Origin: Cypionkella psychrotolerans
GTDB lineage: Bacteria > Pseudomonadota > Alphaproteobacteria > Rhodobacterales > Rhodobacteraceae
Assembly (NCBI RefSeq): GCF_001294535.1
Contig: NZ_LGIC01000065.1
Coordinates: 1-64,000, forward strand
Reading direction: 5' to 3'
Length of the DNA: 64,000 bases
Of this stretch, positions 4,542-32,785 are shown in pieces. Below the pieces are notes generated by a model that made no database searches, was not told the origin of the DNA, and saw only the letters and a list, made by a program, of their open reading frames with translations. A program made the position numbers and the translations under genes. Position 1 is the stretch's first letter; each line of letters begins with the position of its first letter.

Positions 4542-5822
4542 ATGTCCTTTGGATTCAAGAGCCGCGCATTGCGGTCGGCTGGTGTTGTCGCGCTGATCAG
4601 CGCGCTGGGGACGCCGATGATGGCGGAAGAAATCTTCTACGTCTCCGGCTCGGTCGGTAAAGCGGTTGAGAATTTTAAAACGCTGGTGAAGCCGTGGGAA
4701 GATGCCACTGGCAACACCGTGACGATGGTGCCAATGCCGGCGTCAACCTCGGATCAGTTCGGCCAGTACCGGCTGTGGTTGGCCGCAGGTGCTACCGATA
4801 TTGACGTCTACCAGACCGACGTGATCTGGGCACCGCAGCTGGCGGATCACTTTGTTGATCTGAGCGAAGCCGCCAAAGATCTGGCCCCGACGCATTTCCC
4901 CTCGATCATCGAATCGCAAACCGTTGCGGGCAAACTGGTGGCCTTGCCGATCTTCACCGATGCGCCCGCGCTGTATTACCGCAAGGATTTGCTTGAGAAA
5001 TACGGCGTTGCGGTGCCGAAAACCTGGGACGAGCTGACAGCGGCTGCAACCAAAATCCAAGAGGGTGAGCGGGCAGCAGGCAAGGGTGATTTCTGGGGCT
5101 ATGTCTGGCAGGGCAACGCCTATGAAGGCCTGACCTGCGATGCGCTGGAATGGGTGAAATCCTTCGGCGGCGGGCAGATCGTTGAGGCTGATGGCACGAT
5201 CTCGATCAACAACGAGAAAGCCGTGAAGGCGCTGGAAACCGCAAAGGGCTGGGTTGGCACGATCTCGCCAGAGGGCGTTCTGGCTTACGGCGAGGAAGAA
5301 TCGCGCGGCGTCTGGCAGACTGGCAACGCGGCGTTCATGCGCAACTGGCCCTATGCTTACACGCTGGGCAATGGCGACGACTCGGCAGTCAAGGGCCTGT
5401 TCGACGTCACCACGCTGCCGGTGGGCGCAGAGGGTGACACTTCGGCGGCGACTTTGGGCGGCTGGAACGTGGCTGTGTCGAAATACTCCAAACATCAGGA
5501 TGTGGCGATCAGTCTGGCTTTGTATCTGGCGGGACCAGAGGCGCAAAAGGCACGCGCGATTTCGGAATCCGCGCTGCCGACCATCGTGGCTTTGTATGAT
5601 GACGCTGACATCGCCGCCGCCCAGCCGATCATCCCGCAGTGGAAAGCCGTGTTCCTGAACGCCGTGCCACGGCCTTCGGCCCCGACGCTTGGCAAGTACA
5701 ACGAGGTGTCCTCGAAGTTCTGGTCGGCAGTGCATGAAACCCTGTCGGGCAATGGCTCGGCTGCCGACAACCTTGCCGGGTTGGAAGCCGATTTGACCGA
5801 CCTGAAGGGCGACGCCTGGTAA
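4542..5822 (+). CDS. thuE: Trehalose/maltose ABC transporter substrate-binding protein
   Basis: A 426-residue periplasmic binding protein with an N-terminal signal (SRALRSAGVVALISALGTPMMAEE, cleavage near residue 28). It belongs to the family-1 extracellular solute-binding proteins; the order of neighbours (permease, permease, ATPase, thuA, thuB) marks it as ThuE. It captures trehalose or related alpha-glucosides and hands them to ThuFG. A strong RBS (GGGAGGAAA) precedes the ATG. A stable hairpin after the stop would let the cell make more binding protein than membrane subunits. Confidence 0.88.
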   Translation: MSFGFKSRALRSAGVVALISALGTPMMAEEIFYVSGSVGKAVENFKTLVKPWEDATGNTVTMVPMPASTSDQFGQYRLWLAAGATDIDVYQTDVIWAPQLADHFVDLSEAAKDLAPTHFPSIIESQTVAGKLVALPIFTDAPALYYRKDLLEKYGVAVPKTWDELTAAATKIQEGERAAGKGDFWGYVWQGNAYEGLTCDALEWVKSFGGGQIVEADGTISINNEKAVKALETAKGWVGTISPEGVLAYGEEESRGVWQTGNAAFMRNWPYAYTLGNGDDSAVKGLFDVTTLPVGAEGDTSAATLGGWNVAVSKYSKHQDVAISLALYLAGPEAQKARAISESALPTIVALYDDADIAAAQPIIPQWKAVFLNAVPRPSAPTLGKYNEVSSKFWSAVHETLSGNGSAADNLAGLEADLTDLKGDAW

Positions 5823-29018: not shown

Positions 29019-30224
29019 ATGCTATTGAAGATTGTATCGGTCGCGGTGTTTGCGGCTGGGATGGGTCCGATTGTGGCCTCTGCGCAGACAGTGGCGCAGA
29101 TTGGCCAACCTGCTGAACGCCCGCCGGCCAGTTTTAAGGGCGCGCAATACGTTGACAGCCGGGGCTGCGTTTTCATGAACGCAAGCTACGCGGGTGCTGC
29201 GCAATGGGTGGCGCGGGTGAACCGCAAGCACAAGGTTCTGTGTGGCTATCCGCCGACATTTGGCGCCCGCCCCGCGATTGAAGTCGCCGAAGATGTGGCC
29301 CCGGTTAAGGCGGCCCCAGTGGTGGTGGCTGCGGCCCCCGTGGTGGTGAAGCCCGCGAAAGCCAATGCGCCGATGGCGACGGTGGCCAGTGCGATGATGC
29401 CCGAAGCTGTGATGGTTGCACCCGTGCCGCAGGTGCGGGTCGAACATCCGACCGCAGGTCTGGTGGCGAGTTTGCCGACCCCGGCGCAGGCTTATGAGCG
29501 GGCGGCGAGTGTTGGCCCGGCTGCGGGCAAGATCGGCTGCTATACCTCGGCTCCGGTGGCGGAAGTGGTGCGGTTGCGCAATGGCGGCACGGCGGTGGTC
29601 TGCACGCGCGGCGACGGCACGCTGACCGGCTGGCGGTCGCCGATCTATCCACGTGGCGCGGGTGTCGGTGCGGCGCTGAGCGCGCCTGTGCAGGTGGCAC
29701 GGGCGGACAATCCGGGCGTCGGACGGGTGGCGGCTGCCCCCGTATATGCCTCGGCTGCGGTGCCGAATGTGGTGGTGCCGAAGGGCTACAAAGTCGCATG
29801 GACCGATGGCCGCTTGAACCCGCTGCGCGGCGTTGGCACGGCAGAGGGGCAGGCGGCGCAGGATCAGTTGTGGACGCAGAAGGTTCCGGCGCAGCTGATC
29901 ACTGATGTGCAGAAGGCCAAGACCCGCAAGCACAAGCCAGTGGCTTCGGTGACGGTGTCGTCCTCGGGTCAGGCCGAGGTTGCGCCGAAAGCCGTGCGTG
30001 GCGGGGCTTGGGTGCAGATCGGCACCTTTGGCGTGGCCGCCAATGCGGCGGGGGCTGCAGCGCAGTTGCAGGCTTTGGGTCTGCCGGTGGCAAAGTCGAA
30101 GCTGCAGCGTGGCGGCAAGGATTTGCAGATCGTAATGGCGGGGCCGTTTGGCTCGGGCGCTGATGCGCAAGCGGCGTTGCGGATTGCGCGTGGCGCCGGG
30201 TTTGGCGACGCCTATATCCGCTAA
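29019..30224 (+). CDS. Exported SPOR-domain protein
   Basis: About 401 residues. The signal peptide (LLKIVSVAVFAAGMGPIVASAQ) is followed by a short region with two cysteines (SRGCVFMNAS..RKHKVLCGYPP), a long Ala/Pro/Val-rich linker and a C-terminal SPOR domain (GGAWVQIGTFGVAANAAGAAAQLQALGLP...QIVMAGPFGSGADAQAALRIARGAGFGDAYIR). SPOR domains bind denuded glycan strands at the division septum, so this is probably a periplasmic division or cell-wall factor. An IS element sits 4 bp after its stop. Confidence 0.8.
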   Translation: MLLKIVSVAVFAAGMGPIVASAQTVAQIGQPAERPPASFKGAQYVDSRGCVFMNASYAGAAQWVARVNRKHKVLCGYPPTFGARPAIEVAEDVAPVKAAPVVVAAAPVVVKPAKANAPMATVASAMMPEAVMVAPVPQVRVEHPTAGLVASLPTPAQAYERAASVGPAAGKIGCYTSAPVAEVVRLRNGGTAVVCTRGDGTLTGWRSPIYPRGAGVGAALSAPVQVARADNPGVGRVAAAPVYASAAVPNVVVPKGYKVAWTDGRLNPLRGVGTAEGQAAQDQLWTQKVPAQLITDVQKAKTRKHKPVASVTVSSSGQAEVAPKAVRGGAWVQIGTFGVAANAAGAAAQLQALGLPVAKSKLQRGGKDLQIVMAGPFGSGADAQAALRIARGAGFGDAYIR

Positions 30225-31179
30225 TGGGATGTGTCGGCTGCTTCCCCCGTTGGGTTATCCTGAAAAGGGATCAACCGTGCAACGAGGAGAAGTGGCCGTG
30301 TGTGCAAAGAAGACAGAAAGCCTTGATGAGCTTGCCGTGGTCGGTGTCGACCTTGGGAAGGATACGTTTCACTTGGTCGGGTTTGATCGCGTCGGCCAAT
30401 TGGTCATGCGTAAGCAGATCAAGCGGTTGGCATTGCAATCGACATTCGAGCAGCTCCCGCGGTGCATCGTGGGGATGGAGGCCTGCCTCAGCGCCCATTT
30501 CGTCAGCCGGACGCTGCGCGGCATGGGTTTCGAGCCGCGGATCATCCCGGCAATTTACGTGAAGCCCTTCAACAAGGGCTAGAAGAATGACTACAATGAC
30601 GCCGAGGCAATCGCTGAGGCGGTGCTGCGACCTAGCCTGCGGACCGTTTCGGAGAAAGATCAGGATCAGCTCGATCTTCAGGCATTGCATCGGGTCCGGG
30701 CGCGGCTGGTTGCGCGGCGCACGGCGAGCATCAACCAAATCCGGACCTTTTTGATCGAACAGGGCATCACTGTGCGCTCGGGTCTGCGGGCGTTGAAGAA
30801 TTCGTTTGAGGCGATCCTCGAACAGCGGCGGGGCGAGATCTCGCCCCGGATGCGCGGCATTCTGATCGGGCTTTACGGCGACTGGCTTTGGCTGGACAAA
30901 CGGATTGAGGACGTCTCGGGCGAGATCGAGGAGATCAGCCGCACGGAAGAGAACTGCGCCAACATCATGACCATTCCCGAGATCGCTCCGATGATCTCGA
31001 CGGCAATGGTCGCGGCAGTTGGCAAGGGGGAGGCTTTCGACCGAGGCCGGGACTTTGCGGCGTGGGTCGGTTTGGTGCCGACCCAATACAGCACGGGCGG
31101 GAGAACGATCCTCGGGCGGATCACCAAACGGGGCAGCCGCTATCTTCGCATGCTATTCGTCCAGGCGGCGAAGGTGATC

Positions 31180-32259
31180 TGTAAGCGGTGCGCCGATGAC
31201 ACCTTTGCGGCGTAATTCCACGGCAGCAGGTCTGCGATCTGGCTTTGTTTATGCGCATTGACGATAGCCTGAAGGGTTTGCGTGAGATACGCGTGCGGTT
31301 CGATTGCGTTGAGTTTGCAGGTCTCGACCAAGGACGCAATGGTGGCCCAGTTCTCGGCGCATAGGTGAAGGCCACACCGGGCGGGGCGGCCCCACCCCTG
31401 GGGCGATCATCGCGGGCCAATGCCCAAAAAAATCCGGTCTTGGTCTTGCCCGCCTTCGGATCGAGAACCGGAGCCCGGGTTTCATCTGTTACCCGGCAGG
31501 CGATTGTAAAACAATCAGCCGAGAGGGCATGAACAGCTTGGTGGATCGCTTCAGATCGGCGATCAATGCGGTAAACACCGGCTTCAGTTCATAGGCGGCC
31601 TTGCCGACCCATGCCGCGAGTGTGGAACGGTCCAGATCAATTCCCTGTCGGCTGTAAATCTGCGCCTGCCGGTAAAGTGGTAAATGGTCGGCGTATTTGG
31701 AGACCAGAACATCGGCAACGGTTGCCTCGGTCGGCATGCCGCGGGGGATCAGCCGCGCTGGTGCAGGTGCTTGCACCACACCGTTTGAGCAGGACCGGCA
31801 GCCATACTTCGGGCGGTGGGTGACAATGACGCGGAACTGGGCCGGGATCACGTCGCGGCGTTCCGAGACGTCTTCACCGATCTGATGCAGATCACCCCCA
31901 CAGCCGCAGACCGATACCTTTGGCTCGATAAGCTCTTCGACGCGCAATAGATGCTTGGGCAAGGAACCACGATTGGCGTTCCGGGGCTTGGCTGAGCGTG
32001 TCTTGGCCGGATCAACCGCCTCATCTTCAGCATGGATAGCGGCAATCGCGGTCTCGATATCCTCCAAGGCAAGTTCGAACTGATCGGGATCGATCTTCTC
32101 GGATTTGCGCCCGAACATCGCCTGTTTGAAGGCTGCAACCAGCACTTCCAGCCGATCAATCCGTTCTTGCTTGCGCTGATCTCGGGCCTCGGCGGCGGCC
32201 AACATCGCCTTCAAGGTGTCCAGATCATTAGGGAAATCGGCGGCGTTCAACATGGCCAT
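31180..32259 (-). pseudogene. tnpC: IS66 transposase (TnpC), internally deleted and frameshifted
   Basis: The N-terminal part (from 32259) is intact: a coiled coil (AMLAAAEARDQRKQERIDRLEVLV), FGRKSEKIDPDQF, and the zinc-finger-like CGCGGDLHQIGEDVSER...YGCRSC. A palindromic insert at 31487-31527 breaks the frame after STKLFM. DETRAPVLDPKAGKTKTGFFWALARDD follows in another frame. Then about 200 codons of the DDE core are missing before ENWATIASLVETCKLNAIEPHAYL...DLLPW. The frame then runs through the left end of the element. Confidence 0.85.
31487..31527 (+). repeat. Palindromic insert, copy H (about 38-41 bp)
   Basis: Interrupts tnpC between KLFM and DETRAPVLDP. Family flanks ACCCGGCAG and CGAGAGGG surround GCGATTGT / ACAATC with an AAA loop and a one-base bulge. 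Up to three bases at its edge may belong to tnpC. Confidence 0.85.
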
Positions 32260-32482
32260 TCTCTCTCAAAACCCACCCCCGGCCGCCTGCCAAAACCACC
32301 CCCCGAGTCATCTTGCCGCAGCTATTCCACTGCCATCGGGGGTACGCACTTCTGCTGCCCGAACCCGTCGCCAATCCAACCCCGAGAACAGGGCCTCAAA
32401 CTGCGCATGGCCAAGGCCTATCACCCCGTCCTTGATCGCTGGCCAGGTGAATGTGTGTTCCTCCAGCCGCTTGTAGGCCATC

Positions 32483-32519
32483 CATTGCCCAGCAGGCGAC
32501 GCATGCATCGCCGAGAGGG
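32483..32519 (+). repeat. Palindromic insert, copy E (37 bp)
   Basis: Splits tnpB between WDGTG and MAYKRLEEH. Left flank CATTGCCCAGCAG, stem GGCGACGC / GCATCGCC with one mismatch, right flank CGAGAGGG. Very close to copy A at 209-245. Confidence 0.87.
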
Positions 32520-32594
32520 ACCAAACCCGGTGCCGTCCCAATAAAGCAGCTTCAATCGATCCGCCCTGCGGGACCGGAATACAAACCCGGTGCC

Positions 32595-32632
32595 CCTCTC
32601 GGTGAATGCGATGCATTCACCTGCCGGCAATG
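32595..32632 (-). repeat. Palindromic insert, copy F (about 38 bp, reverse orientation on +)
   Basis: Splits tnpB between KDPFS and GTGFVFR. On the minus strand: CATTGCCGGCAG, a perfect 9 bp stem GGTGAATGC / GCATTCACC with a 3 nt loop, then CGAGAGG. Confidence 0.87.
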
Positions 32633-32704
32633 GCTGAACGGATCTTTGTGCAACGCGTTCTTCACCAAAGCTGCCAACCCGTCATGGCCTTTGCGGAAAT
32701 CGAT

Positions 32705-32741
32705 CCACTGCCCGGCAGTGCATGCGTGCATGCGCGAGAGG
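32705..32741 (+). repeat. Palindromic insert, copy G (37 bp)
   Basis: Splits tnpB between KP and the DFRKG motif near its N-terminus. Left flank CCACTGCCCGGCAG, stem around TGCATGC / GCATGCG, right flank CGAGAGGG. Shifts the frame. Confidence 0.87.
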
Positions 32742-32785
32742 GGGCTTGGTCGCCACCATGATCCGCACCCGGTTCGATGGAAAGA

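Follow-up and report, generated by a model that had tools for sequence, protein, structure and literature searches.

A family of short hairpin elements residing in transposase genes of Cypionkella psychrotolerans and other Rhodobacterales

Transposase genes of Cypionkella psychrotolerans and its relatives are interrupted by copies of a short palindromic DNA. We interpret it, with a probability of about 0.5, as a non-coding mobile hairpin element, nearly confined to the Rhodobacterales, that lives in multi-copy DNA, chiefly transposase genes, and moves by homing or short-tract copying. The best reading of the data is that the element is non-autonomous and homes between repeat copies. The literature accessible to us, mainly as titles and abstracts and foremost in openly accessible papers, yielded no description of this hairpin element.

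We analyzed a 64,000-nt stretch of the C. psychrotolerans genome (the window) with a covariance model (CM) trained entirely on copies from outside the window, one of which lies elsewhere in the same genome. The CM identified six copies, two in an IS481-like gene and four in IS66 genes, rather than the seven clear copies counted in the original prediction; the next match in the window (5740-5754, E 0.69) is chance-like. The CM and the letters placed the four IS66 copies, which occur in both orientations, within 1-2 nt of their predicted coordinates. Furthermore, all six copies (6/6) reside in genes of two IS, consistent with the earlier observation that no ordinary gene in the window carries the element. 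The copies and their host genes are as follows:

2-677, + strand: IS481-like transposase remnant with two elements; decay elsewhere in the ORF too, by eye.
209-245, + strand: palindromic element of 37 nt in the IS481-like transposase ORF, between KRYPI and GFFHI (CM E 0.0086).
261-299, + strand: palindromic element of 39 nt in the same IS481-like ORF, between FFHI and DIAE (CM E 8.4e-7).
31489-32259, - strand: IS66 transposase (tnpC) ORF, interrupted by the 31487-31527 element; its piece 31528-31926 matches Pfam DDE_Tnp_IS66 and zf-IS66.
31487-31527, + strand: palindromic element of 41 nt, antisense in IS66 tnpC, between KLFM and DETR (CM E 2.3e-6).
32308-32760 (approximate limits), - strand: putative IS66 tnpB frame, split by three elements into four pieces, read by eye from the letters and the ORF list.
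32483-32519, + strand: palindromic element of 37 nt, antisense in IS66 tnpB, between DGTG and MAYKRLE (CM E 7.2e-5; gene context by eye).
32594-32633, - strand: palindromic element of 40 nt, sense in IS66 tnpB, between DPFS and GTGFVFR (CM E 9.4e-6, match 32594-32632; gene context by eye).
32706-32742, + strand: palindromic element of 37 nt, antisense in IS66 tnpB, between KP and IDFRKG (CM E 7e-6; gene context by eye).

We take the transposase remnant at 2-677 to be of the IS481 type. Its piece 2-208 has no Pfam match, and its homologue in locus L361 has rve and rve_3 matches that score below the Pfam cut-off. Both insertion sites in this remnant are also used elsewhere: the site homologous to that of 209-245 is occupied by other hairpins in loci L126, L361 and L364, and the site homologous to that of 261-299, which adjoins what is presumably the first catalytic Asp codon of the transposase, is occupied in locus L352. 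The insert at 31487-31527 has an insert-free homologue in locus L070. Once the inserts are cut by script, the segments KRYPI/GFFHI/DIAE and KLFM/DETR continue in reading frame. Clean joins had been proposed for all four IS66 copies; the script bore this out for KLFM/DETR, whereas the three tnpB joins were judged by eye and one of them, DGTG/MAYKRLE, is one base out of frame. Adjoining the truncated IS66, ORF pieces at 30148-31215 resemble, by eye, an IS110-type transposase.

The consensus of the element is C[AG][CT]TGCCCGGCAG, followed by a hairpin region of variable sequence (12-26 nt) and then by CGAGAGGG, with a length of mostly 37-45 nt. When 58 copies from loci elsewhere are aligned, the flanks (TGCCCGGCAG and CGAGAGGG) are nearly invariant and the outer CCC/GGG pairs of the stem enclose a 4x4 internal loop (GGCA/GAGA). 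Double-changed cells at the three inner pairs number 16, 28 and 8, and broken ones 5, 0 and 12 (of 58). The inner stem varies through compensatory pairs while the flanks stay nearly fixed. Long forms also have a bulged T when the alignment is read by eye. The length of the insert is not a multiple of three in 109 of the 122 hairpins listed from a scan of one genome per species. At gathering cut-offs, Rfam returned only tRNA in the window and no family on the elements; a search of five loci at E <= 0.5 gave one chance-like match (L107:1859-1899) off any element.

The C. psychrotolerans genome (5.08 Mb in 93 contigs) has 32 CM places at E <= 0.5 and 27 distinct copies, the latter counted by script over extracted loci and not matched one by one to the CM places. 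An abutting piece with a Pfam transposase-type match above the cut-off accompanies 11 of the 27 copies, and homology or inspection by eye assigns 15 to ORFs of the IS3, IS5, IS66, IS110 or IS481-like type. Two copies counted as lying in IS ORFs (L043 and L193:1501) have no Pfam match, and the class of the host gene is ambiguous for one of the 27 (L206).

The element family is nearly confined to the Rhodobacterales. An exact pattern matched 57 of 195 related genomes, 53 of them from the same family, and the reversed-pattern control gave a single match in each of ten genomes. The species scan yielded at least 120 matching stretches, and 75 of the 80 titles listed belong to what we take to be Rhodobacterales. 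The other five are three Alphaproteobacteria, Labrenzia, whose match is a hairpin copy, and Kitasatospora, whose match failed the hairpin cut-off. Among the matches listed, 122 folded as hairpins and 9 were dropped for weak folding, although about six of the latter look true by eye. Two consensus queries matched 92 and 108 plasmid records, mainly from roseobacters and including 2 records from Shinella, and one consensus query had no match in phage records. Finished genomes contain the element, as do plasmid records from many genera, and this speaks against an artefact of assembly. Viral contigs contributed 25 matching stretches, 10 of them with a clear hairpin. The clear hairpins are on IMG/VR contigs (L445, L452, L454, L456-L458, L460, L461, L463 and L468) that are possibly proviral or misassigned bacterial DNA.

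The association with transposase genes extends beyond the window. A transposase-like ORF is present within 250 nt of 112 of the 122 hairpin copies listed from the species scan versus 5 of 86 control positions (Fisher p about 1e-39). These controls are local rather than genome-wide, each taken from the same stretch as the copies at a distance of more than 2 kb. Direct reference matches alone account for 99 copies and 2 controls, and the further calls draw in part on BLAST links made transitively and on motifs read by eye. Pfam was also tallied over 109 ORF pieces, taken from both strands. The majority of these pieces had no match; the domains found were mostly those of transposases, with single instances of DUF6880, IclR and DUF6233.

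Ten of the 122 listed copies have no recognised IS ORF around them. By eye, L332 and L356 of this group look like IS3 orfA. L346, and less clearly L403, sits in a different dispersed repeat that also houses three copies from the family set (L096, L098 and L119). This non-IS repeat thus contains four of the copies outside IS, perhaps five. It has 53, 8 and 7 matches, many of them partial, in genomes G086, G023 and G112, respectively, and none in two other genomes searched. The repeat is about 165 bp long (L098:1195-1359), and neighbouring repeat units contain the hairpin element. The hairpin copies in the non-IS dispersed repeat suggest that repeated DNA, not transposase per se, may be the true target. 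The transposase bias first noted in the window is strong and holds in other genomes, but it is qualified by the few copies in a non-IS dispersed repeat.

The element inserts exactly between two bases and without target duplication. An empty-site homologue was counted for 83 of 156 copies and is ungapped across the junction in 51; at least 7 of the remaining 32 are gapped or self matches. The target preference is loose, with (A/G)TC before the insert and G after it. Strict copies have T at position -2 (58%), C at -1 (74%) and G at +1 (74%). Target frequencies taken from the species scan are biased because the scan pattern fixes the bases adjoining the element. A site map that placed 155 of 271 copies has 94 antisense and 61 sense to the host gene.

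Some sites are used recurrently. For example, 13 mapped copies in IS5-like genes are at LV/DSTGIK and 9 at RNR/IE (the slash marks the insertion point). IS3-like genes have 5 mapped copies at FI/EEH and 2 at HHT/DRGSQY, and IS481-like genes have 2 at HI/DIAEV. The hairpins at a shared site are often unlike, as illustrated by TGGTTTGCTTGCAAACCA and GGCATTGCGCAGCAATGTCC, both at DSTGIK; at the RNR/IE site most are alike. Homologous IS of different genomes can thus carry other hairpins at an identical site. Several of the recurrent Asp and Glu codons are, we presume, catalytic. By hand tally, 7 of 13 antisense sites immediately before an Asp codon are at such presumed catalytic codons versus a rough expectation of about 2 in 15 (p 6e-4).

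Insertion could in principle occur anywhere, with copies visible only where they are neutral, in dead or redundant IS. We consider tolerance of this kind, by itself, a rather unlikely explanation. It is consistent with the decayed look, by eye, of the IS481-like copy in the window and with the best places in plasmid records, most of which have no annotated feature in a gene table that omits pseudogenes. Furthermore, the substitutions among six copies of an IS3 in genome G027 (5 non-synonymous and 2 synonymous, in orfB only) look neutral. However, only 10 of the 122 listed copies are outside recognised IS ORFs, with two of these being IS3-like and one or two in another repeat, and the same codon was hit repeatedly in different genomes. 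Persistence only where harmless, one of the options in the original prediction, may therefore be partly true, but it fails to explain on its own the scarcity of copies outside IS and the recurrent sites.

Some insertions are recent. Genome G115, a single contig, has at least 11 copies of an IS5-type element that are 0.1-0.8% apart, plus a relative that is about 13% diverged (40 of 129 candidates scored). Among the 11 copies listed, 8 are empty and 3 are filled by an identical 38-nt element at one site. The original prediction had named IS copies with and without the insert as a check, and both states were recovered, here as well as in the empty homologues of the 83 copies described above. The filled copies are on two SNP haplotypes that are both also present empty, which indicates that the insertion moved between copies or was made more than once. 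Ordinary gene conversion could account for the common insert on the two haplotypes. One of the three filled copies has a second element elsewhere, with a change of TT to GG beside the second insert (L111/L304). The hairpin of this second insert was seen in none of the other CM matches (7 CM matches in this one-contig genome), so its donor is missing. This second insert is also the newest insertion that we saw.

Filled IS copies continued transposing. In genome G027 (two contigs), the IS3 of 1385 bp is at six places, 98.6-99.9% identical, and each copy carries the same four inserts; 3-bp duplications are present at three copies. Among all candidates scored in this genome, we found only the six filled copies, a 318-bp fragment and weaker partial matches, and no empty copy. 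Genome G089 has four copies of another IS3 with 3-5 inserts each and, with all candidates scored, no empty copy of that IS3. Similarly, a plasmid of Sulfitobacter pontiacus has two identical IS3 copies carrying the insert.

A further reading is that bacteria have a homing element, about 40 nt long, directed at the active-site codons of transposases from unrelated IS families; the interrupted genes would still be expressible, the element would be a neutral rider and the host IS would stay active. We regard this reading as improbable.

Expression of the interrupted genes could involve ribosomes or RNA processing passing the hairpin, as in mitochondrial bypassing elements, a possibility that we consider improbable and that is the boldest reading of the data. 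The presence of only filled copies of the multi-copy IS in G027 and G089 is consistent with skipping, as is an orfB in G027 that is open across 308 codons once its four inserts are cut by script. Furthermore, the species-scan inserts have more stop-free frames (658 of 732) than hairpin-preserving shuffles (588, sd 12), and 93 unique middles have 47 compared with 35 in shuffles (sd 4.2), a weak signal because the copies are related. On the other hand, both orientations occur within one gene as well as overall (94 antisense, 61 sense), and the upstream triplet and the end of the insert are unmatched in the consensus. G115 retains empty copies that could act in trans, and the changes in G027 look neutral.

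Genome G077 can be read both ways. It has four IS6 copies with a common, in-frame 39-nt insert before the Asp of TIVT/DKAHSY; loci L049 and L051 carry insert-bearing IS6 copies of this genome. Three of these filled copies have pairwise dN/dS values of 0.07-0.14 outside the insert, as would be expected if the gene were still expressed, but the values are 0.49-0.71 in comparisons with the fourth copy, which looks unrelated in its 3' part. The copies differ 5 nt upstream (a non-silent change) and 11 nt downstream of the insert. Such a pattern would be expected from a recent re-insertion that involved very short tracts, but also from a gene that kept its function, and the insert happens to be in frame. 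Neutral changes in G027 versus strongly purifying selection in three G077 copies mean that selection gives no single answer.

We also considered a REP-like or IS200/IS605-like element mobilised by a host RAYT or Y1 transposase, a scenario about as improbable as skipping. The hairpin, the bulged T in long forms, the insertion without target duplication and the mostly 5' target preference are all consistent with such an enzyme. Furthermore, C. psychrotolerans has a RAYT gene (L160:1024-1497, - strand, contig C90), which matched the NCBIfam model NF047646 with 140 bits and scored just below the cut-off of PF01797. However, its protein has Ser aligned with Tyr115 of 4er8, which we take to be the catalytic residue, and a related ORF in L161 likewise has Ser at this position by eye. 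The original prediction had suggested a search for a small transposase, for example of the Y1 or RAYT type, that co-occurs with the repeat. Counts and presence lists compiled by hand for 120 genomes of the family did not bear this out: genomes with RAYT do not differ accordingly in their element counts (odds ratio 1.1-1.7, p 0.19-1.0), and both RAYT and Y1 are missing from 11 of the 21 genomes that have at least three copies. For Y1 (PF01797) alone, the association is weak (odds about 4, with p about 0.02 at a threshold of two or three copies) and may only mark IS-rich genomes. In a search across 121 genomes, the firm result for Y2 and reverse transcriptase is confined to the C. psychrotolerans genome, which had no match to either.

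The weakest alternative is IS silencing, a role raised in the original prediction, by a host system that marks and inactivates transposase genes via frame-breaking hairpins; the many families of transposase genes with inserts, which are frequently at presumed catalytic codons (7 of 13 antisense sites before Asp, p 6e-4 on a rough expectation) and mostly of frame-breaking length (109/122), are consistent with it, but we consider such silencing very improbable and unsupported by the data, as insert-bearing IS were amplified with their inserts in place and continued transposing, a few copies are in a non-IS repeat, none of four gene families tested is a linked host gene, and the position in the gene should be irrelevant to inactivation.

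In the homing model that we prefer, the mobile form would be a single-stranded hairpin; copying or pasting would place it in an IS copy, at a site that matches the element's short flank. Transfer would be by homing or very short-tract conversion, and the element would spread from one repeat copy to the next while also hitch-hiking with the IS. The mover may be an enzyme or, instead, a host replication or repair process. A dedicated protein is suggested by the jumps across IS families and by the constancy of the flanks; homing driven only by homology could do without one. Genomes of the G115 type provide direct pairs of empty and filled sites and make the movement testable.

The element resembles several known systems without matching any of them. 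Like the REP/REPIN sequences associated with RAYT, it is a short (20-40 nt), imperfect palindrome with a conserved foot, many copies and no ORF. However, REPs are extragenic while the hairpin element is mostly inside transposase genes, and the consensus foot here is GGCAG/CGAGA rather than the GTAG or CGTC tag at one end of REPs (PMC3733652). Nor, unlike REPs, does the element show any tracking of RAYT. Single-strand transposons of the IS200/IS605 family, which rely on Y1, have hairpin ends with a bulged T, no target duplication and a short 5' target motif. Like them, the element has a hairpin end with a bulged T and enters its target without duplication; its short 5' motif is only partly conserved. 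It has one hairpin only and no gene, and Y1 was not found in many of the element-rich genomes searched. A MITE is likewise disfavoured; terminal inverted repeats together with target duplication characterise this group, and the insertions here are without duplication.

Mitochondrial bypassing elements (byps) of Magnusiomyces are, like the hairpin element, many short inserts that interrupt coding genes, with 81 positions in the case of byps (PMC5009743). In contrast to byps, the hairpin element is bacterial, resides almost only in IS, occurs in both orientations and gives mixed, indirect signs of skipping. Small palindromes that enter genes or other repeats include the Rickettsia palindromic elements and the small dispersed repeats of cyanobacteria. 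Compared by description only, the element differs from these in having transposase genes as hosts and lengths that mostly break the frame. Homing introns and inteins insert recurrently at conserved active-site codons. The element shares recurrent insertion at what are presumably active-site codons, but it is a hairpin without known splicing, nuclease or coding capacity.

We regard the element as a new family of tiny hairpins that colonise repeats, foremost transposase genes, and ride along with their hosts; homing or the copying of short tracts between repeat copies is the most likely route. The family may account for some of the transposase remnants left blank by the annotation of roseobacter genomes. 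If interrupted transposases still work, they would point to a bacterial skipping mechanism, so far known from very few cases. And if the homing reading is true, the element would be a parasite of parasites that has no gene itself and, at about 40 nt, spreads as a hairpin via transposase genes.
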